From positions 23,385 through 87,384 of IMG/VR virus record IMGVR_UViG_3300009104_000008: a DNA stretch of 64,000 nucleotides; one strand, 5' to 3'. The notes below the pieces were generated by a model. The model made no database searches, was not told the DNA's origin, and saw nothing but the letters and a program-made list of their open reading frames with translations. Below, in pieces: positions 9,249-54,144 of the stretch; positions within the stretch are counted from its first letter, which is position 1, and each line of letters begins with the position of its first letter. A program made the translations under genes and the position numbers. The stretch is from a virus.

Positions 9249-9298
9249 TCTCCCTTATCAAGACGATAACGCAATTCCATATTAATGTTTGGATTCAT
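9233..9298 (-). CDS. Possible 21-codon linker ORF upstream of the portal
   Basis: Reads MNPNINMELRYRLDKGEWQL and ends in W. Its ATG overlaps the upstream stop as ATGA and its end runs into the portal start. This geometry would couple portal translation to the upstream gene. It may be only a leader peptide or chance. Confidence 0.3.
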   Translation of the reverse strand: MNPNINMELRYRLDKGEWQLW

Positions 9299-10656
9299 AT
9301 TTCTTCATCCCTATTTTCCTTAGTAATTACGCCCGACTGTTCTAATTCATCCATAATAGCCATTTTATTATTTTCTTCTAACTTATGAATATTATCAACA
9401 TCAATATCTAATTCACTAAAATCAAATCTAGTATTATCACTATGATTATAGTATTTCATTAATTTATACAATTCTCGTAATCTATTCTTAGACCACTTTT
9501 CCTTTTTAAAATGTTTTTTAATCCTAACTAATTCTAATAGTGCCTGTGCATTTTTAGATTTGAGTTTAAAATGTGGTGCACATTTAGTCAATAAATCATG
9601 TATATCTCCTTGTGAATAAAAATTTAATCTATTAACTGGTCTAGTATCTTGTGGAGATTTTTGGTCTAAATGCAACCTACCCATACCTAATGATTTATGC
9701 ATCTCTAACATAAATGCTTTCCCTCTATCTCCAGTAGCAACTAATCCTACTCTAGGATTAAAATTCTTATCTATAGTAATAAACCCATCTGAATCAATAA
9801 ATGCTGCGGTATATGCCCAAATGTTTTTCTTAATAGAATCATCTAATTTATAATATGCTCCATTTACATTTGTTATGTGTTGTGTCTTTGCTAATTTTGC
9901 AATCATATTAGGAGTGCTTTTAGATTGTAAATTAACAGGTAATGCTTCATGCATTTGTCTTGCAGAAATTCCGGGATTATTACAAACAGATTTTAATATT
10001 GACTCTTTAATCTTAGACTTCATACCAACAGTAGTGCTTTGCTTTCTAATAATTGATTTAAAGTTCTTTTTGCTTTGTGACATTTCTTTATTTAATTTAG
10101 CATATTCACCATTAAAGGGTAAGTCTTTCTGTTCTAATTTAGATTCCCAATATTTACATAGATTATCTATAATTTCTCTTCTTGTAGGCTCATCATAAAT
10201 ATTACCTAGTTTAATTATATCTTTTTCACTACAAACCATTTCTTTAACCAGAGGCTTATATTTATGAAGCCAATAAATACTATCAATGCTTTTATCTAAA
10301 TGGTCAGTATAAGCATCTATTAAATTATCAATAGACTTTGTTATATTTATTTTTGTGTCGCCCTTTAATGTTCTTCTAAACATACGCATATCTTTAATTA
10401 TATCGGGTATATTCTTATCCTCAATTATATATTCCTTTAATGGATTCTTTAATATGTTGTTTGCATTAGTGTAAGATAATTTAAACTCTTTAGCATAGTC
10501 CTTAACAATAGTAGCATGGTCAATAAGAGGTTGCTCTAATAACCATTCTTTACGCTGTAAATCACTTTCAATATCTTTTTGTTCCTCAGTCAATCTCTCG
10601 ACTTCTTCAACCTTATCTGCTAATTCTCTTAATTTTTGAGACTTTTCTCCGACCAT
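9295..10656 (-). CDS. LAGLIDADG-domain protein with coiled coil and winged helix
   Basis: 453 residues from the ATG at 10656, preceded by GAGGTGAATAAG. Residues ~1-50 are a coiled coil. Around residues 225-275 is a winged-helix-like segment (NNPGISARQMHEAL). From about residue 285 comes a homing-endonuclease-like domain: YTAAFIDSDGFITI matches the LAGLIDADG helix with its acidic residue, followed by the usual beta strands. One motif only, so it would act as a dimer or as a DNA-binding domain. Its place between terminase and portal, in frame with operon spacing, suggests either a homing element beside conserved head genes or a domesticated packaging protein. Confidence 0.65.
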   Translation of the reverse strand: MVGEKSQKLRELADKVEEVERLTEEQKDIESDLQRKEWLLEQPLIDHATIVKDYAKEFKLSYTNANNILKNPLKEYIIEDKNIPDIIKDMRMFRRTLKGDTKINITKSIDNLIDAYTDHLDKSIDSIYWLHKYKPLVKEMVCSEKDIIKLGNIYDEPTRREIIDNLCKYWESKLEQKDLPFNGEYAKLNKEMSQSKKNFKSIIRKQSTTVGMKSKIKESILKSVCNNPGISARQMHEALPVNLQSKSTPNMIAKLAKTQHITNVNGAYYKLDDSIKKNIWAYTAAFIDSDGFITIDKNFNPRVGLVATGDRGKAFMLEMHKSLGMGRLHLDQKSPQDTRPVNRLNFYSQGDIHDLLTKCAPHFKLKSKNAQALLELVRIKKHFKKEKWSKNRLRELYKLMKYYNHSDNTRFDFSELDIDVDNIHKLEENNKMAIMDELEQSGVITKENRDEEI

Positions 10657-27623: not shown

Positions 27624-27710
27624 TGCGAGATACCCAAGTTTGGTCAAAGGGGCAGGACTTAAGATTCTGTGCGTAGTGCTTCGGGAGTTCAAATCTCCCT
27701 CTCGCAACCA
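27624..27710 (+). tRNA. tRNA-Leu (TAA) with encoded CCA
   Basis: Acceptor TGCGAGA/TCTCGCA, anticodon stem CAGGA/TTCTG with loop CTTAAGA (anticodon TAA), long variable arm as in class II tRNAs, T arm GGGAG-TTCAAAT-CTCCC, discriminator A, and CCA encoded at 27708-27710. Viral tRNAs often match codons rich in the virus; TTA is a very common Leu codon here. Confidence 0.9.
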
Positions 27711-28606: not shown

Positions 28607-28683
28607 AGGTCTGTGGCGCAGTCAGGTAGCGCAACGGGCTTTTAACCCGTTGGTCGCGGGTTCAAATCCTGCCAGACCTACCA
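28607..28683 (+). tRNA. tRNA-Lys (TTT) with encoded CCA
   Basis: Acceptor AGGTCTG/CAGACCT, D stem GCGC/GCGC, anticodon stem ACGGG/CCCGT with loop CTTTTAA (anticodon TTT), T stem GCGGG/CCTGC, discriminator A, CCA at 28681-28683. It abuts the stop of the preceding gene, so it is processed from a shared transcript. Confidence 0.95.
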
Positions 28684-29047: not shown

Positions 29048-29293
29048 ATGAAAAATACACATTATGAAGTATTTAAGGAGTTATATGATAAAATCATGAA
29101 GAAAGAACTCTCAATATGTGAAACCTGCGATACATTTTTCAAATATACTCCTCAAAAAATATTCTGTGATGAATGTGCGCATGAGAGGAGAAAATCGAGA
29201 AAACTCAAGTATAGCGAAAAGAATCGTGAGAAGAAAGCGGCGTATGACCGCAAGTATTACGCAAAGAAAAAACAAAAGAGGGATAAAAAATGA
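29048..29293 (+). CDS. Zinc-finger basic protein, paralog of 51894-52235
   Basis: CETCDTFFKYTPQKIFCDEC aligns with CETCDEYFEYIPRKRYCDNC in the gene inserted in the polymerase locus. Both continue with ERxKS and a long Lys/Arg helix. Probably a nucleic-acid-binding protein; possible relative of small homing or HNH-like proteins, but no nuclease motif is visible. Confidence 0.7.
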   Translation: MKNTHYEVFKELYDKIMKKELSICETCDTFFKYTPQKIFCDECAHERRKSRKLKYSEKNREKKAAYDRKYYAKKKQKRDKK

Positions 29294-45408: not shown

Positions 45409-45669
45409 ATGAAAAAGGAAAAACATTACCATAAAAGAAGAGCACTTTTAGAGTTTCATAAAATTAAAATTGAGTTCTCTACACAAGAAGCAGTAGATTT
45501 TTTAAATAATTATCGAAGTAAATATGGAGTAGGACTTCATAGATATACTCAAACAACTCAACAACAGTTGGGTGCAATACTATCATCAGATTCAAACTAT
45601 AAACAGATTAATCCAAACGCAGGAAAAAATATTACCTCAACATGGCTCTATATAGGAGAGGAAGAATAA
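45409..45669 (+). CDS. Small helical basic protein, 86 aa
   Basis: Start at 45409 after AGAGGAATAAAA. HTH-like (EAVDFLNNYRSKYGVG; TQQQLGAILSS). Its end overlaps the RFC gene start by one base. Possibly a DNA-binding regulator or recognition protein. Confidence 0.6.
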   Translation: MKKEKHYHKRRALLEFHKIKIEFSTQEAVDFLNNYRSKYGVGLHRYTQTTQQQLGAILSSDSNYKQINPNAGKNITSTWLYIGEEE

Positions 45670-46580
45670 TGCTATGGACAGAAAAATATAGACCTTACTA
45701 TTTAAGTGAAGTAATAGGACAATATGGTTTTATTATGGATGCAGAAAATTGGGTAGAAAATAAAAGTATGCCTAATGTGTTATTATTTGGTGTAGCAGGA
45801 ACAGGTAAAACTGCCGCCGCAGGTGCATTAGCAAATGAAATGTTAGGTGATTTTAAACAGTCTAACTTTATTGAGTTAAATGCATCAGATGATAGAAAAT
45901 TAGAAACTGTTAGAACACAAATTAAAGAAATAGCATCAACATCTAAAATAGGCGATGTGCCGTTTAAGGTTATTCTTTTAGATGAAATGGATGGTATGAC
46001 TAAAGATGCACAAAATGCATTGAAGCGCATTATGGAACGCTATGCAGATAACTGTAGATTTATCTTAACTTGTAATGATAGGTCTAAAATTATCTACCCA
46101 TTGCAGTCAAGGTGTGCTAATTATCAATTTACAAGATTATCCGATGAAAACATCAGGTTAATTTTAGAGAGGATATTAGAGCAGGAAAACCATAAACTAC
46201 CCGATAATGAGAATATCGAGGCATTTATAGGGGGTCTGCATGGTGATATTCGTAGGGGAATTACTGAATTACAAGCGTCAATTTCTAGTAATAGCCCATT
46301 ATCAAAGGTAACAAAACAAAGTCTTGAACCTTATTCAGAAATAATAAAAATGATTTTAGAGAATAAATATGAGAATGCTCTGGATAATTTACACTCAAGA
46401 ATATATCAAGTTACTGATATGAACACAGTATGTATTAATTTGCATGATGCAGTTTTAGATACTAATATGGCGCAAGCAAAAAAATTCCAATTGTTAAAAA
46501 TTATAGGAGAAGCAGAATGGCGTAGTCGTTCAACAACTCCTAAATTATTATGCAGTTGGTTAATTGGAAAAACAATGTAA
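45669..46580 (+). CDS. rfcS: Replication factor C small subunit (clamp loader ATPase)
   Basis: 303 residues from the ATG at 45669. LWTEKYRPYYLSEVIGQ is the RFC box II start; Walker A GVAGTGKT, Walker B LLDEMD, sensor 1 LTCND, and the arginine-finger SRC motif are all present in order, followed by the lid and collar helices. It loads the sliding clamp encoded at 48974. Length is typical of archaeal RFC-S. Confidence 0.95.
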   Translation: MLWTEKYRPYYLSEVIGQYGFIMDAENWVENKSMPNVLLFGVAGTGKTAAAGALANEMLGDFKQSNFIELNASDDRKLETVRTQIKEIASTSKIGDVPFKVILLDEMDGMTKDAQNALKRIMERYADNCRFILTCNDRSKIIYPLQSRCANYQFTRLSDENIRLILERILEQENHKLPDNENIEAFIGGLHGDIRRGITELQASISSNSPLSKVTKQSLEPYSEIIKMILENKYENALDNLHSRIYQVTDMNTVCINLHDAVLDTNMAQAKKFQLLKIIGEAEWRSRSTTPKLLCSWLIGKTM

Positions 46581-48127: not shown

Positions 48128-48977
48128 AAATAAAGATGAAGAAATAACATTTGAACAAAGAAAGCAACTGATATTGAATCAGGTTCAGAAGAGAAATCAA
48201 AGGGATTCTCACTTCTTATGCTGTTCTATTACAGGTAATCCTAAAGTCGGTAAGACTGGATTAGCCTTAGATTGTAGGACAGAAGCAGAAATAGAAGAAG
48301 GCTATAAAATAGCAGTCTTAGATTTCGATAAGGGTGCTGAACCAACATGGAGTTCATGTTGGAATAAAGATGAGAATATAATTATATTTGAACCTGTTGA
48401 ACTTAATCGTGATGGTTCTACTAATTGGGAAGAATCAATGAATAATGCTTTAGCATTTCTAACTTTTGTTGAAGAAATGATTGAATCCGGTGAAAAGGTA
48501 AAGGCCTTTATTCTTGATGGAGTAGATAAATTATATGAGGGTGCAGGTGATTTATTGAGAAGTCATCTAGCAAAATCAAATAAGAGAACAGGACAGATTA
48601 TTCTTGAAACTGATTCTATTAAAGTTAACCCGTTAGATTGGAAAATTAGAAATAGGATTAATGATAGAATTTTAGATATGGCTTGTAATTTAGAAACTAA
48701 TAGATTCTTTATTACGCACATGAAGCCTATTTATGGTGATATCTATAATCCCGTTCCGGTGGGGGAAGTTCCAGATTGGCATAAAAGCACACCCGCAAGA
48801 TTTAATCAAATGTTACATATTGTTAAAATAAAAGATAAAGGTGTAACAACATATAGTGCTACATTAGAAGCAAGCAAAACTAACTCTAAATTAGTTGGAA
48901 CTACTTGGCCTATATTCTCTACTAATGGAGATAATCAATGGTCTGGTATTCCCGAATTACGGGAAGGTAAAATATGA
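48108..48977 (+). CDS. RecA/RadA-superfamily ATPase (Sak4-like)
   Basis: 289 residues. Walker A GNPKVGKTG (about residues 44-52), Walker B VKAFILDGVD, and no N-terminal HhH or HTH domain, the layout of phage Sak4/RadA-core recombinases. It probably promotes strand annealing or loading on SSB-coated DNA. Start at 48108 after GGTGATAAAA. Confidence 0.75.
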   Translation: MSWNTSENKDEEITFEQRKQLILNQVQKRNQRDSHFLCCSITGNPKVGKTGLALDCRTEAEIEEGYKIAVLDFDKGAEPTWSSCWNKDENIIIFEPVELNRDGSTNWEESMNNALAFLTFVEEMIESGEKVKAFILDGVDKLYEGAGDLLRSHLAKSNKRTGQIILETDSIKVNPLDWKIRNRINDRILDMACNLETNRFFITHMKPIYGDIYNPVPVGEVPDWHKSTPARFNQMLHIVKIKDKGVTTYSATLEASKTNSKLVGTTWPIFSTNGDNQWSGIPELREGKI

Positions 48978-49738
48978 AAATATCAATAAATAATAAAACA
49001 TTATTAGACGGATTAACTGCAGTATTATTAAAAGGTAAATATCCTAGCGGCATTTCAACTAAAAACAAAAGCATATCAGATTATGCTTTATTAGAAGTAT
49101 TAGATAATAGAATTGAAATATATAACGCAGACGCTACAACTGGCTGTTGTTATTCTATACCTACTAATAATGATGTTGTGTCAATAGACATGGGGCATTG
49201 TATTCTTGATATCCCTAAAACAGTTAAATATTTAAAAGCATTTAAGGGAAATGTTACAATAGAAGTAGATGATGTGGTAAGGTTTAATTGTAGTGGCAAA
49301 AACGCTACAATACCCCTCACATTACTACACCCCCATCTTGACATGATAAACATGGTTAGGGAAATAAAATTGCCTACTGATGATACTATGCCTACATTTG
49401 GTAAAAAACAAACACCATTTGAATGTAAAGTATTAGTGCAATCTGCTTTATTAGTTGATGCAACTAATACCTGTGATGTAACTAATACAGGATTATATAA
49501 CTTAGATGTTTCTGATGATGGTCTATGTATTACTAGCCCATCAGATAATAATGAATCAGTAACAGTTACTATTGATACTATTCAAGTGGAAGGAGATGAA
49601 GCAGGTGTTTCTATTGCAGGGCCGTTTGCTAACTTTTTGAATTCAATTGTAATTATTTATATGAAAGATGATTTCCCAATACTAATGGTAAGCCCAAATA
49701 GATTATTATTAAAAGCCCCAAGATTTAGCCCAAGATAG
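48974..49738 (+). CDS. Sliding clamp, PCNA-like (divergent)
   Basis: 254 residues, the usual PCNA length. Two similar beta-alpha-beta halves; the C-terminal IVIIYMKDDFPILMVSPNRLLLKAP matches the PCNA end (short acidic strand, then the yLLAPR-like motif). Coupled by ATGA to the RadA-like gene and followed by the polymerase. Sequence is divergent, so the call leans on length, end motif and neighbours. Confidence 0.7.
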   Translation: MKISINNKTLLDGLTAVLLKGKYPSGISTKNKSISDYALLEVLDNRIEIYNADATTGCCYSIPTNNDVVSIDMGHCILDIPKTVKYLKAFKGNVTIEVDDVVRFNCSGKNATIPLTLLHPHLDMINMVREIKLPTDDTMPTFGKKQTPFECKVLVQSALLVDATNTCDVTNTGLYNLDVSDDGLCITSPSDNNESVTVTIDTIQVEGDEAGVSIAGPFANFLNSIVIIYMKDDFPILMVSPNRLLLKAPRFSPR

Positions 49739-49745
49739 TGATTAT

Positions 49746-51440
49746 ATGATAATATCAAATACAAATAAAGGTATATATTTTGCATGGCGAGATGAAAATA
49801 AAGAAAGGAAATCTGAGATAATACCATTCTTAGATAACCCACCTTATTTTTACATCAAAGAGTCTGCATTTAAACCAGACCAAATATTTAAAAATGATAA
49901 ATGGAAAAATAGTAAAGTATATTCTATGCGATATGAAGAAGGCGATTGGTATAACTTAGAAGGTGAAAAACTAACAAAGGTAATTTGTAATCATCCATCT
50001 GAAATAAAAGTTGTTTCTAAAGAAATGTCTGAAAATTATGATACTCAAACATATGAAGCAGATATTCAATATCACTATAGAGCATCAATTGATAAATTCA
50101 AAGATGGTGTTCCTTATCATGAATATGATATGCGTAAGTGGTATTGGGATATGGAATGGCAACAGGGTGGAGAACATGATGGTAAAATTACCTGTATTGT
50201 TTGTTATGATACCCATGATGATGAATACATAATCTATTGTTGGTTTCCATCTGATGACTTGTATGAGAGAGATACCCCAATAATTGATACTGATTCTCAA
50301 ATAACAATGATTACTTCTGCAAATGAAGAAGACTTATTAAGAACATTCATAAATTATTGTGCCGCAAAAGACCCAGATATGTTAATTGCATGGTTTGGTA
50401 ATAGATTCGATTTACCTAAATTATTAGAAAGGTGTGCAATTTACAATATTGATGCGAGAATATTATCTCCTGTATTAGAAGTTTCTAATTATGTATATAA
50501 TGCTAAAGATAGTAAATTCAAAAGAGATTTCTTTGGCCCTAAAGAACAACCAATTAAAGGTAGGATTGTTGTTAGTTTAGATTTAGCATTTGAGCGACAA
50601 TGGATTGATTCTCAAAGAGGAACACTACCAACCTTATCACTTGATTATGTTTCAGAAACAATATTAGGCAATAAGAAACTTGTTAGTGAAAAGTTCCCAG
50701 AGAAAAATGAGTTCTTTAGGAGAGCATGGTTAGAAGATACAGATAACTATTTAGAATATGCTTTGATAGATGTTGATTTAATTAGAAAGATAGATGAAAC
50801 TAATAACTTAACAGAAGCAATGATTTCTTTACAAAGAATATTGAAAGCACCATTTGAAGCGTGTTTTCATGCAACGCACATGGCTAATATTTATTTTACT
50901 CGTAATGCTTCTTGGAAAGTGTTAACAGGGGGAAATAAATATGAAAAAGATTATGAAGGGGCATTAATTTATGACCCAACATCTGAAGGAACAAATGGAT
51001 TACATCTTAATGTGGCGGCATTTGATTTTGCAGGTCTATACCCATCAATGATGATTGCCCGTAATATTTCATGGGAAACTAAATCTATTGAACCTACTGA
51101 ATTTGCTGTGAATATAGCAACACCAAGAGATTTTTCTCCTGTTGAAAAACATGAGATGTTATATTACAAAACAGATAAGTTAGGATTACTTCCTCGTTCT
51201 GTTATGGAATTGAAAACATTAAGGAATCAGTATAAAACTAACATGAAAAATTCTTCCACTAAAGAAGATTACAATAAGTGGAATAATAACCAAATGGCAG
51301 TTAAAAGATTAATGGCCTCTTTCTACGGTATTGTTGGTAATAAAGGGTTTGGTTGGTGTGATATTGATTTAGCCGCTAGTATTACTGCTAGTTCAAGAGA
51401 AGCGATTAGAGAAGCGGCATTCAAGGTGAGAGAATTATGA
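49746..51440 (+). CDS. polB: Family B DNA polymerase, N-terminal piece (exonuclease and palm motifs A, B)
   Basis: 564 residues. Exonuclease motifs YWDMEW (I), WFGNRFDLP (II) and YALIDVDLI (III) appear intact. Palm motif A is AFDFAGLYPSMM and finger motif B KRLMASFYG. It stops at FKVREL, just before motif C would be expected; motif C is in the separate gene at 52365-53270. The stop overlaps the next small gene as ATGA. The two proteins presumably assemble into one enzyme. Confidence 0.93.
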   Translation: MIISNTNKGIYFAWRDENKERKSEIIPFLDNPPYFYIKESAFKPDQIFKNDKWKNSKVYSMRYEEGDWYNLEGEKLTKVICNHPSEIKVVSKEMSENYDTQTYEADIQYHYRASIDKFKDGVPYHEYDMRKWYWDMEWQQGGEHDGKITCIVCYDTHDDEYIIYCWFPSDDLYERDTPIIDTDSQITMITSANEEDLLRTFINYCAAKDPDMLIAWFGNRFDLPKLLERCAIYNIDARILSPVLEVSNYVYNAKDSKFKRDFFGPKEQPIKGRIVVSLDLAFERQWIDSQRGTLPTLSLDYVSETILGNKKLVSEKFPEKNEFFRRAWLEDTDNYLEYALIDVDLIRKIDETNNLTEAMISLQRILKAPFEACFHATHMANIYFTRNASWKVLTGGNKYEKDYEGALIYDPTSEGTNGLHLNVAAFDFAGLYPSMMIARNISWETKSIEPTEFAVNIATPRDFSPVEKHEMLYYKTDKLGLLPRSVMELKTLRNQYKTNMKNSSTKEDYNKWNNNQMAVKRLMASFYGIVGNKGFGWCDIDLAASITASSREAIREAAFKVREL

Positions 51441-51535
51441 GTAAAAAAATAGTAGCGACAAGTTTCCCATATAATCCTATACTCAAATGTATGCAAACAG
51501 GAATGTATATTGCTTATGGAGATGAAGAAGAATGA
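51437..51535 (+). CDS. Microprotein inside the split polymerase locus, 32 aa
   Basis: MSKKIVATSFPYNPILKCMQ...; ATGA overlaps at both ends. First of four small genes separating the polymerase halves. Unrecognised. Confidence 0.5.
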   Translation: MSKKIVATSFPYNPILKCMQTGMYIAYGDEEE

Positions 51536-51897
51536 CGGAATTAATCAATTTAACAAATCATGATATTACATTAGTAAGAACGGTTAAAGGTGAACAAAAA
51601 AAGACTACAATAAAACCCAGTAAAATGTGGGCTAGAATGAATCCACAATCTAGCGTTAAGGTGGATTCTTTAGTTGTAGATGGATTTGAAATAGATATAT
51701 TTGAGCAAAGTGATTATTATACCAATGTTAACTGGCGTTCACGAAAGTTTGGTTTACCTTCTCCCCAGAAAAATACATACTATATTGTTAGTAGGATTGT
51801 TGCTCTTCATAACTTAGAAAGAAGAGATTTACTAATACCGGAAACTAATTCTAATAAAAATATGAAGTATCTTTTTAGGATAGGGAAAGAATTATGA
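51532..51897 (+). CDS. Conserved phage-type protein, 121 aa
   Basis: ELINLTNHDITLV start, SKMWARM, and LPSPQKNTYYIVSRIVALHNLERRDLLIPE ending match a widespread uncharacterised phage/bacterial family with the YIVS-RxDLxxP signature. Beta-rich. Function unknown. Confidence 0.65.
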   Translation: MTELINLTNHDITLVRTVKGEQKKTTIKPSKMWARMNPQSSVKVDSLVVDGFEIDIFEQSDYYTNVNWRSRKFGLPSPQKNTYYIVSRIVALHNLERRDLLIPETNSNKNMKYLFRIGKEL

Positions 51898-52235
51898 GTG
51901 ACTTAGATATAGAAACTAAACTTTTTGTTCAAAAAATATTAGAAGGTCATATAGAAAACAAAGAAATAACTGAATGTGAAACTTGTGATGAATATTTTGA
52001 ATATATACCTCGAAAAAGATATTGTGATAATTGTGCTGAGGAAAGAAAAAAGTCTTATTGGAAAAAATATCACCAAAAACATCAAAATAAAATACTGATG
52101 AATAAGAAAAAACACTACTATGAAAATCAAGAAGCGCAAATAGAACGCAAGCGTAAATACCGTGAAGAGAATAGAGATAAAATTAAAGAAAGTAATCGTA
52201 AACATTACTTAAAAAGAAGGGGTAAAAAAGAATGA
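51894..52235 (+). CDS. Zinc-finger basic protein inside the polymerase locus
   Basis: Paralog of 29048-29293 (CETCDEYFEYIPRKRYCDNC then ERKKS). The C-terminal 65 residues are a Lys/Arg/Glu/Tyr-rich helix with repeated RKYREENRDKIKES units. Similar helices occur in small homing proteins. As an insert between polymerase halves it is a candidate homing factor, though no nuclease motif is seen. Confidence 0.65.
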   Translation: MSDLDIETKLFVQKILEGHIENKEITECETCDEYFEYIPRKRYCDNCAEERKKSYWKKYHQKHQNKILMNKKKHYYENQEAQIERKRKYREENRDKIKESNRKHYLKRRGKKE

Positions 52236-52363
52236 ATGGTGAAGATATAGATAAATGGTCAGAAAAACATGTAGGCAGTTTAGCCTTAACAAGAACTATT
52301 GTTGGTTTTGTTAATGTATTATTAAGCATCATAGTAGTGGCAAAATTATTTGGGTGGATTTAG
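52232..52363 (+). CDS. Membrane microprotein, 43 aa
   Basis: MNGEDIDKWSEKHVGSLALT... with one hydrophobic helix (IVGFVNVLLSIIVVAKLF). Last insert gene; its stop is one base before the C-terminal polymerase ATG. Confidence 0.55.
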   Translation: MNGEDIDKWSEKHVGSLALTRTIVGFVNVLLSIIVVAKLFGWI

Positions 52364-52364
52364 A

Positions 52365-53270
52365 ATGGAAGTAGTTTATGGACATACTGATTCAATTTAC
52401 TGTAAAGTAGATTCTGTTGAACAAGCAGAAGAAATAGTAGTTAAATTAAATGAAGAAGTTAGAAAAATATTCCCTAATGTGTTAGGATTAAAAGAACACC
52501 CTGTAGTGCTTGAATTTGAAAAGTATTTCAGTAGTCTGGGAGTAGGCGCAACTAAAAATAGAAATGCCGGTTTAATTTCTTGGAAAGATGGAAACTATTT
52601 AAAAGAAGAAGAATTCTTTATGACTGGCTTTACTGCAAAAAGAATATCAGAAACTAAATTAGCAAAAGAAATTCAAATAACTACATTAAAGATGTGGGTT
52701 AATGGGTGCACTAAAATAGAAATTCTAGATTATCTTCGTGAAAGATACAATGGTGTATTGAATGGTGATATTGAATTAAATCAAATCATCAAGCGAAGTA
52801 GTTATAAGGAAGAACGCTTCCATGTGTATTGTGAAAATTGTAAGAGGGCATTTCATATATTTGAAGATAAACCTTTATCTGTTGGAGAATTAAAACATGA
52901 ATATACAGGCGCAATGAAGACAGGTAAATATTGGAAATCAAATGGTAAAAGGGTTTCTTTTGGGGCAGGTTTAATGGGGGCTTATTTTTATAACCATGTT
53001 ACAGGGAATGAAATTAAAGATTCTTTCTTGTTTATGAAAATTAACCAAAAGCACAATAAACTATTAGAACATCCATTAACAGGTAATTATATTAAGCCTG
53101 ATTATATATCGGGTATCTTGGAAGAAGATTTTGAAGGTTATACTCCTAATTGGGAACACTATTCAGAAGTAGTAGTAAGAAAGGCCGCACCTATATTTGA
53201 GGCAATGAATTGGGATATTAACGATATTAAGAAAGACTTGAAACAAAGGTCATTAGATGAGTGGTGGTAA
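52365..53270 (+). CDS. polB: Family B DNA polymerase, C-terminal piece (motif C, thumb, PIP box)
   Basis: 301 residues starting MEVVYGHTDSIYCKV, which is palm motif C (usual YxDTDS) with the first Asp replaced by His. KKxK-like TAKRISETK and the thumb helices follow. CENCKRAFHIF may bind a metal. The last residues KQRSLDEWW fit a PCNA-interacting PIP box. It completes the protein encoded at 49746-51440, after an insert of about 0.9 kb. Confidence 0.9.
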   Translation: MEVVYGHTDSIYCKVDSVEQAEEIVVKLNEEVRKIFPNVLGLKEHPVVLEFEKYFSSLGVGATKNRNAGLISWKDGNYLKEEEFFMTGFTAKRISETKLAKEIQITTLKMWVNGCTKIEILDYLRERYNGVLNGDIELNQIIKRSSYKEERFHVYCENCKRAFHIFEDKPLSVGELKHEYTGAMKTGKYWKSNGKRVSFGAGLMGAYFYNHVTGNEIKDSFLFMKINQKHNKLLEHPLTGNYIKPDYISGILEEDFEGYTPNWEHYSEVVVRKAAPIFEAMNWDINDIKKDLKQRSLDEWW

Positions 53271-53271
53271 A

Positions 53272-54144
53272 ATGAAAGAATTTACATACGATTGGGATTA
53301 TACAAAAGACGAACCGATATTAAAAATAAGCAAATCCTCTATGGGGTCATTTAATTGGTGTCCTATGAAATATCAATTCTCATATATTGAAGGAAGGAAA
53401 ACAGACCAAACCGAAGCCATGTTAAAAGGTAGCATTGTTCACAATAGTAGAGAAGATTGGTTTAATCAAGTTGACATTGCTAAGGCAGAAAATATGTCTG
53501 AACAAGAGTTAAAGGTATATTTTATGAGTTTATATCCTATTGATGGATATTCAGATATTTATTCTGTAATGGCTTCTAACTCTGCATCACTATTTTTAAA
53601 TGCAAAATTAGAAGATAAAGTGGATAACTTTTTACCAGTAGTTAATGAAGTTATGTTAGATGCTGAAATACTTATCCCAAAAGACATAAATCCAAAAATT
53701 CCACTACATCAAGATTATACAGTTCATCTTCAAGGTATTATTGATAGAATGTATATTGAAAATAATCAATACATACCAATGGAGTTAAAAACAGGAGCAT
53801 GGAAAGATTATAAGACAACCAATATGAGAAAGGAAATGGCTTTCTATAAATTACTATTTGATAATTGCCCAAATGAATCTTTAGTTGAAAATGGTTTAGA
53901 CCCTAATATAGATATAACACATTGGGGTTGGTATTATCCAGAGTCAAACTATACATATGTTGAACCAATTAAAAAGAGTAGCACAAATGCTGTATTAAGA
54001 GCAATAACTAAATTAATTAAAGCATATGAAGATAAAATTGATGGTGATGCAGATTTCCCTCCTAAGTTTTATGCAAAGACTTGTGTTCAATATTGTGATT
54101 TCTATAGCATATGCCCTGCGGCATTAGATGATGGGTGGACTTAA
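53272..54144 (+). CDS. Cas4/RecB-like PD-(D/E)XK nuclease with Fe-S cysteines
   Basis: 290 residues from the ATG at 53272. Motifs: first Cys in NWCPMKYQFSY (~29), GSIVHNSRE (His), LQGIIDRMY (Asp), MELKTG (Glu-x-Lys), QxxxY-like RKEMAFYKLL, and a terminal Cys trio CVQYCDFYSIC. This is the Cas4/AddB-type four-Cys Fe-S nuclease. Likely processes DNA ends or flaps in replication-recombination. No CRISPR array nearby. Confidence 0.85.
   Translation: MKEFTYDWDYTKDEPILKISKSSMGSFNWCPMKYQFSYIEGRKTDQTEAMLKGSIVHNSREDWFNQVDIAKAENMSEQELKVYFMSLYPIDGYSDIYSVMASNSASLFLNAKLEDKVDNFLPVVNEVMLDAEILIPKDINPKIPLHQDYTVHLQGIIDRMYIENNQYIPMELKTGAWKDYKTTNMRKEMAFYKLLFDNCPNESLVENGLDPNIDITHWGWYYPESNYTYVEPIKKSSTNAVLRAITKLIKAYEDKIDGDADFPPKFYAKTCVQYCDFYSICPAALDDGWT

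Follow-up and report, generated by a model that had tools for sequence, protein, structure and literature searches.

The window analysed here, a stretch of 64,000 nucleotides (bases 23385-87384 of an 87.4 kb IMG/VR virus record), contains a gene for a B-family DNA polymerase (polB) that is divided into an N-terminal piece (N piece) and a C-terminal piece (C piece), with four small genes, termed cargo genes here, between them. Comparison of this locus with those of related viruses suggests, with a probability of roughly 0.8, that the two pieces form a two-chain B-family polymerase, the gene of which was split once and later acquired a slot for cargo genes. Split replicative polymerases have hitherto been isolated cases, whereas here a whole virus clade retains one, with dozens of natural junction variants.

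Two pieces of the polymerase gene

The N piece (positions 49746-51440, + strand) encodes 564 amino acids with the N-terminal and exonuclease domains and motifs A and B, ends with REAAFKVREL followed by the stop codon, and is conserved in 118 complete split pairs. Motif A (DFAGLYPS, at about 51024) and motif B (KRLMASFYG, at about 51303) are located near its end. The C piece (52365-53270, + strand) encodes 301 amino acids with the palm strands carrying motif C, the thumb and a PIP-like tail, and opens with motif C (VVYGHTDS). The Pfam profile DNA_pol_B matches the N piece at profile positions 39-195 (E 7e-21) and the C piece at 222-327 (E 3e-6), and the exonuclease domain is also matched by the N piece. 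According to Pfam and PHROGs, the order in the profiles is N and then C, and about 13 to 26 profile positions between them are left unmatched. Searches against solved structures and folds assign the exonuclease, palm and fingers of B-family polymerases to the N piece and the end of the palm and the thumb to the C piece. The two pieces together therefore contain the exonuclease and polymerase domains and motifs A, B and C in the order of the B family. An earlier inspection of the letters (the sequence-only reading) assigned the exonuclease and motifs A and B to the N piece and motif C to the opening of the C piece, in agreement with these domain and motif matches. The motif positions also confirm its claim that the break separates motif B from motif C, right in front of the catalytic loop.

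The start of the C piece is placed at ATG 52365, and not at TTG 52350 as in the open reading frame (ORF) call, because the TTG is not conserved but the position of the ATG is: across the relatives, the start codon of the C piece, an ATG or in rare cases a TTG, precedes the Tyr of motif C by four residues. Both pieces are under purifying selection, with a ratio of nonsynonymous to synonymous substitution rates (dN/dS) of about 0.06-0.18. An assembly or sequencing error is ruled out, because the same split is present in more than 120 distinct contig sequences. The split C pieces contain an extra segment (about residues 150-195, alignment A1) in which there is a zinc-ribbon motif of the CxxC type. 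The unsplit relatives lack this segment, and the C piece of the window retains the first Cys pair alone.

Distribution and origin of the split

Profile scans of IMG/VR detected 508 stretches for the C piece and at least 575 for the N piece, and the 80 best of each were taken. This gave 128 distinct rows with both pieces, in which the window is counted twice (as itself and as L029). The gene is split at the same residue position in 126 of these rows and unsplit in two, and a further scan identified about 40 more unsplit relatives. All split rows form one clade against the unsplit marine relatives (bootstrap/Shimodaira-Hasegawa-like approximate likelihood ratio test, 100/100; the latter value is 99 in a larger tree), and the haloviruses, with YGDTDS in one gene, are located outside this clade. 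A single origin of the split is the simplest reading, because all split rows form one clade. The sequence-only reading proposed that related viruses be compared for an unsplit gene, and this comparison reveals no fused form within the clade; a scan across the viral collection for halves lying close together, which allowed a single Glu codon and strict codons for the motifs, likewise detects none. A search for a cellular source gave one match among genome contigs, in a Maricaulis metagenome-assembled genome, and this contig is probably a misbinned virus.

In the unsplit relatives, exactly 24 residues are counted from the IT of the motif B helix to the Tyr of motif C (42 of 42 measurable). In the split pairs, 19, 20 or 21 of these residues are carried by the N piece and four by the C piece, and the sum is 23-25 in 116 of the 118 pairs, so that the length of the unsplit enzyme is kept within one residue. 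At least five lineages have no insert (L062/L242; L130/L131/L235/L238/L240; L236; L237/L239; L241). At these loci the stop codon of the N piece and the start codon of the C piece overlap as ATGA in different frames, and none of them is fused. The junction of L131 is GGGAATTAGAATGAAAGTAGTA, of which one frame gives RELE and a stop, and the next frame MKVV. A junction of this type could be derived by a single-base deletion in a sequence of the E-L-G-M-K type. At some loci the tail of the N piece, such as GAGATGGAAGTATGA, is similar to the start of the C piece, ATGGAAGTAGTT; a target-site duplication was considered for this likeness but is not favoured, as the likeness is missing elsewhere.

We propose that polB was broken once in the ancestor of the marine clade, exactly in the loop that leads into the motif C strand, and that a short frame-changing mutation may have broken it by laying a stop over a Met codon (ATGA). 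This specific frameshift origin falls a little short of even odds. Several points weigh against a single split followed by formation of a slot. Parsimony leans slightly towards an ancestor with an insert that was then lost repeatedly (5 changes, versus about 6 for an insert-free ancestor), and an ATGA-first ancestry is thus no more than possible. Even the nearest unsplit outgroup has only about 30% identity to the split clade, and with such a distant outgroup and 80 best matches per scan, intermediate unsplit forms may have been missed. The scan for fused junctions, with its codon settings, is narrow. Motif C lacks its first Asp, though that of the unsplit relatives does likewise. Finally, the structure models mentioned below were built on 10-sequence alignments, such that low confidence in them is weak evidence.

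Probable assembly and expression of the two chains

When the pieces are modelled singly, the N piece loses confidence in the palm (residues 395-431, 459-466 and 531-564) and the C piece at residues 1-8. These predictions give weak support to the possibility that each piece would need the other in these segments. The C piece ends with a PIP-box-like tail (QRSLDEWW, 53244-53267, + strand), which is predicted to bind the sliding clamp. A C tail of this type (QxxLxxWW/WF) is present in 107 of 118 split loci, compared with a single case in a comparison set of 43 relatives, so that it is close to universal in the split C pieces and nearly missing from the unsplit ones. This suggests that the polymerase binds the clamp through the C piece. 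The likeliest product of the two genes is a heterodimer. In this heterodimer, the chains would assemble one palm, with motifs A and B from the N piece and motif C from the C piece, and the PIP-like tail would hold it on the virus-encoded clamp.

In Haloferax, overlaps of -4 nt drive termination followed by reinitiation, and genes for subunits of complexes show an enrichment of such overlaps (PMC6728339, PMC10666635). By analogy, translation of the N and C pieces is probably coupled: the two would be expressed from one operon, and ribosomes that end the N piece would re-start on the C piece, so that both chains are made together. The stop/start junction may later have become a landing slot for small promoterless genes with ATGA-type overlapping ends. 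Cargo could then enter or leave singly or in chains, with neither polymerase half harmed, and could be exchanged by recombination. When the cargo is long, the coupling of N to C would have to travel along the chain of overlaps.

Cargo genes in the window and its relatives

Four + strand ORFs of 32, 121, 113 and 43 amino acids are located between the N and C pieces, and the count of four separate genes given by the sequence-only reading is correct. Successive genes overlap by ATGA at the junctions N/1, 1/2, 2/3 and 3/4; the first overlap (51437-51440, + strand), of the N stop with the start of cargo gene 1, has the -4 spacing that is commonest in the relatives. Cargo gene 1 (51437-51535) encodes 32 amino acids, belongs to family F25 (3 loci) and has no domain match. 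Cargo gene 2 (51532-51897; 121 amino acids; F22, 4 loci; dN/dS 0.25) matches phrog_21731, a family of unknown function (E 3.5e-13). Cargo gene 3 (51894-52235; 113 amino acids; F33, 2 loci) encodes a CxxC..CxxC zinc finger and a Lys/Arg-rich repeat. Certain phage HNH proteins (phrog_7091, E 0.004) are weakly similar to it in their N-terminal part, but it lacks a nuclease motif. The paralog that had been noticed for this gene is located at 29048-29293 (+ strand; 45% over 64 amino acids) and is the sole one. Cargo gene 4 (52232-52363; 43 amino acids; F7, 13 loci; dN/dS 0.14) encodes a probable single membrane helix, as read by eye, and its stop codon TAG (52361-52363) is one base ahead of the C start.

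In 122 insert-bearing loci, 388 cargo ORFs cover about 92% of the insert DNA by calculation. The tiling was confined to the polB strand, and in the seven loci compared the reverse strand is tiled less well. Most of the ORFs are chained by ATGA overlaps: a spacing of -4 nt is the most frequent (196 cases), followed by -1 nt (37 cases). The insert lengths are spread over all three frames, which rules out in-frame readthrough. The ORFs represent 96 families (54 singletons) in 69 arrangements, and the arrangement differs in 29% of the pairs with more than 97% polymerase identity and in 73% of those with 93-97%. Cargo gene 1 is common to the window and its nearest relatives, L001 and L002, but the later genes differ, and the insert of L031 is the zinc-finger gene alone. 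Most of the cargo families tested are real genes under purifying selection, because their median dN/dS is 0.06 to 0.65. Few functions are identified: a DUF2061 membrane protein, a DNA methylase, HNH and T5orf172. The DNA N6/N4 methylase gene occupies the slot at 4671-5447 of L019.

Spacing of 60 nt or less is found between the clamp gene and the N piece in 94% of the loci and between the C piece and the downstream nuclease gene in 68%, but between N and C in 2.4%. The intervening DNA is an insertion hotspot in which the cargo turns over fast. In near-identical pairs (L016/L011, L090/L100, L002/L001, L083/L080 and L135/L132), extra cassettes are often located right after the N stop, as if new cassettes were entering the slot at this edge. 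In L101, L102 and L125, the best match to the nuclease downstream of C is located about 5 kb upstream, possibly through local rearrangement. A tentative idea, which we regard as doubtful, is that the split is retained because it is useful. Two essential and strongly conserved half-genes would flank a neutral stop/start slot and offer homology on either side, and accessory genes could be exchanged there by recombination between co-infecting viruses and be co-translated with the replicase; if true, the replicase gene is a built-in gene-capture site for the clade.

Alternative explanations

The sequence-only reading attributed the split to the four inserted genes and pointed to homing elements as the cause of the splits known in some T4-like phages. 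The attribution to the four genes is contradicted by the findings that the split is clade-wide, that the cargo differs even above 97% polymerase identity and that at least five lineages are insert-free. As to homing elements, homing-type nuclease genes are present in about 6 of the 122 inserts but not in that of the window, and they look like visitors. A version in which a homing endonuclease gene split polB and was later lost or replaced, the present inserts being its descendants, has a phage precedent (PMC2988022). It can also draw on the HNH genes in five inserts (F26 in L016, L025 and L086; F37 in L090 and L094) and the T5orf172 (GIY-YIG-type) gene in L167, all of which adjoin the N stop, and on the pairs L011/L016 and L090/L100, which differ by the endonuclease gene alone. 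This version is nevertheless unlikely, because the endonucleases are rare and patchy, lineages without insert have a seamless ATGA junction, and splitting by insertion alone is expected often to leave extra or missing residues. Archaeal polB genes contain inteins near motif C, close to the site of the split, which counts in favour of an intein origin. The split would then be a scar left near motif C by the imprecise loss of an intein, an origin that has been proposed for PolB3 of Methanobacteriales (PMC4104785). This origin is still less probable: the Pfam scan detects no intein domain in the inserts, the break precedes an intact motif C, and the junction length is kept within one residue. Neither piece carries an intein half: both the end of N and the start of C consist of polymerase residues, and Pfam gives no intein match.

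It is highly improbable that the intervening DNA is an intron or that splicing, of RNA or of protein, rejoins the product. The joined residues of N and C would equal the length of the unsplit enzyme, but no Rfam intron is detected in the window or ten relatives, the inserts are chains of selected genes of any frame phase and unrelated sequence, and the insert-free loci still have a stop and a start in different frames. The least probable explanation, to which we give hardly any weight, is that the C piece has decayed to a remnant or that the virus uses another polymerase. It would account for motif C (52377-52394, + strand), which is YGHTDS, with His for the first Asp of the usual YGDTDS and the second Asp kept; the two Asp residues of YxDTDS, usual but not universal in the B family, are therefore not both present in the window. 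However, all split loci have YGHTDS, and the form Y[GS]HTDS occurs in 43 relatives, whether split or not, including the unsplit marine ones, while the haloviruses have YGDTDS, and the dN/dS of the C piece given above argues against decay. YGHTDS does not exclude membership of the B family, because the first Asp is likewise missing from further accepted PolB groups, among which there are active enzymes (PMC7544198). A second polB, by which another polymerase could be supplied, is absent from the record.

Comparison with other split polymerases

The two-part PolB is already on record, because the Aoguangviridae report of the International Committee on Taxonomy of Viruses labels it as PolB-NTD and PolB-CTD in Poseidoniales virus YSH_150918 (PMC10768690). 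Like the window, this marine archaeal tailed virus has modules on opposite strands (GC content 31.5%, compared with 32.9% in the window). The report labels the two parts only, and does not describe site, origin, junction or cargo. In the literature searched, in which coverage of magroviruses is incomplete, we found no description of the split site, single origin, ATGA junction or cargo turnover. The split polB is thus known in outline, but new in its anatomy.

Both polypeptides of PolB3 of Methanothermobacter thermautotrophicus are required for activity, and we know of no cargo slot for the split PolB of Methanobacteriales or Nanoarchaeum equitans. These enzymes are, as here, archaeal-type PolB in two polypeptides, and their splits are ascribed to inteins, by intein loss or trans-splicing; however, they are cellular, and the N. 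equitans pieces are non-adjacent, whereas those of the window are viral (PMC4104785). The closest viral parallel is gp43A/gp43B of Aeromonas phages 25 and 44RR, a split PolB with a variable intercistronic element, and the two proteins of phage 25 co-purify and polymerise (PMC2988022). In these phages of bacteria the element is a seg endonuclease gene or an untranslated spacer, whereas in the window accessory genes follow one another in a chain. The parallel to T4-like phages drawn in the sequence-only reading is thus sound as an idea but not as to the site, because gp43A of phage 25 ends between motifs A and B, and the window is split between B and C. The marine split probably works alike and yet is a separate variant, because the break in phage 25 is between A and B and an intein trace is missing here; the two viral splits are likely of separate origin. 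Free-standing homing endonuclease cassettes of T4 (mobE, segF and others) are likewise promoterless with overlapping stop and start codons (PMC2988022), but they are endonucleases, whereas most cassettes here are not, and many stand in series within one slot.

Palm assembly from two chains, stop/start coupling and subunit ratio in archaeal viruses, and formation of a cassette slot become directly testable in this clade. Annotators should note that polB-based trees and counts of such viruses may rest on half a gene.

Genome context

The record looks like a magrovirus, a marine archaeal tailed virus. Its placement in Magrovirales/Aoguangviridae is by gene content, GC content and module layout: it has a two-part PolB, its own clamp (weak match), a clamp loader, a ligase, tailed-virus head genes, a low GC content, and opposed replication and morphogenesis modules. 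The hosts of the split-polB clade, a large group of ocean viruses, are probably archaea. The record also has genes for ERCC4 and PD-(D/E)XK nucleases, portal, protease and terminase. The sliding-clamp-like gene (48974-49738, + strand; phrog_947, processivity factor, E 9e-5) is directly upstream of the N piece, and the clamp loader gene of the RFC small subunit type (45642-46580, + strand; phrog_168, E 4e-62) is in the same module. The gene for the PD-(D/E)XK nuclease (53257-54144, + strand) overlaps the end of the C piece. The protein adjoining the terminase (9298-10656, - strand) contains an HNH-like stretch at residues 281-394 (phrog_5046). Genes for tRNA-Leu(TAA) (27624-27710) and tRNA-Lys(TTT) (28607-28683) are located near the zinc-finger paralog, and the gene at 33521-35401 matches the insertion and barrel domains of B12-dependent (class II) ribonucleotide reductase.
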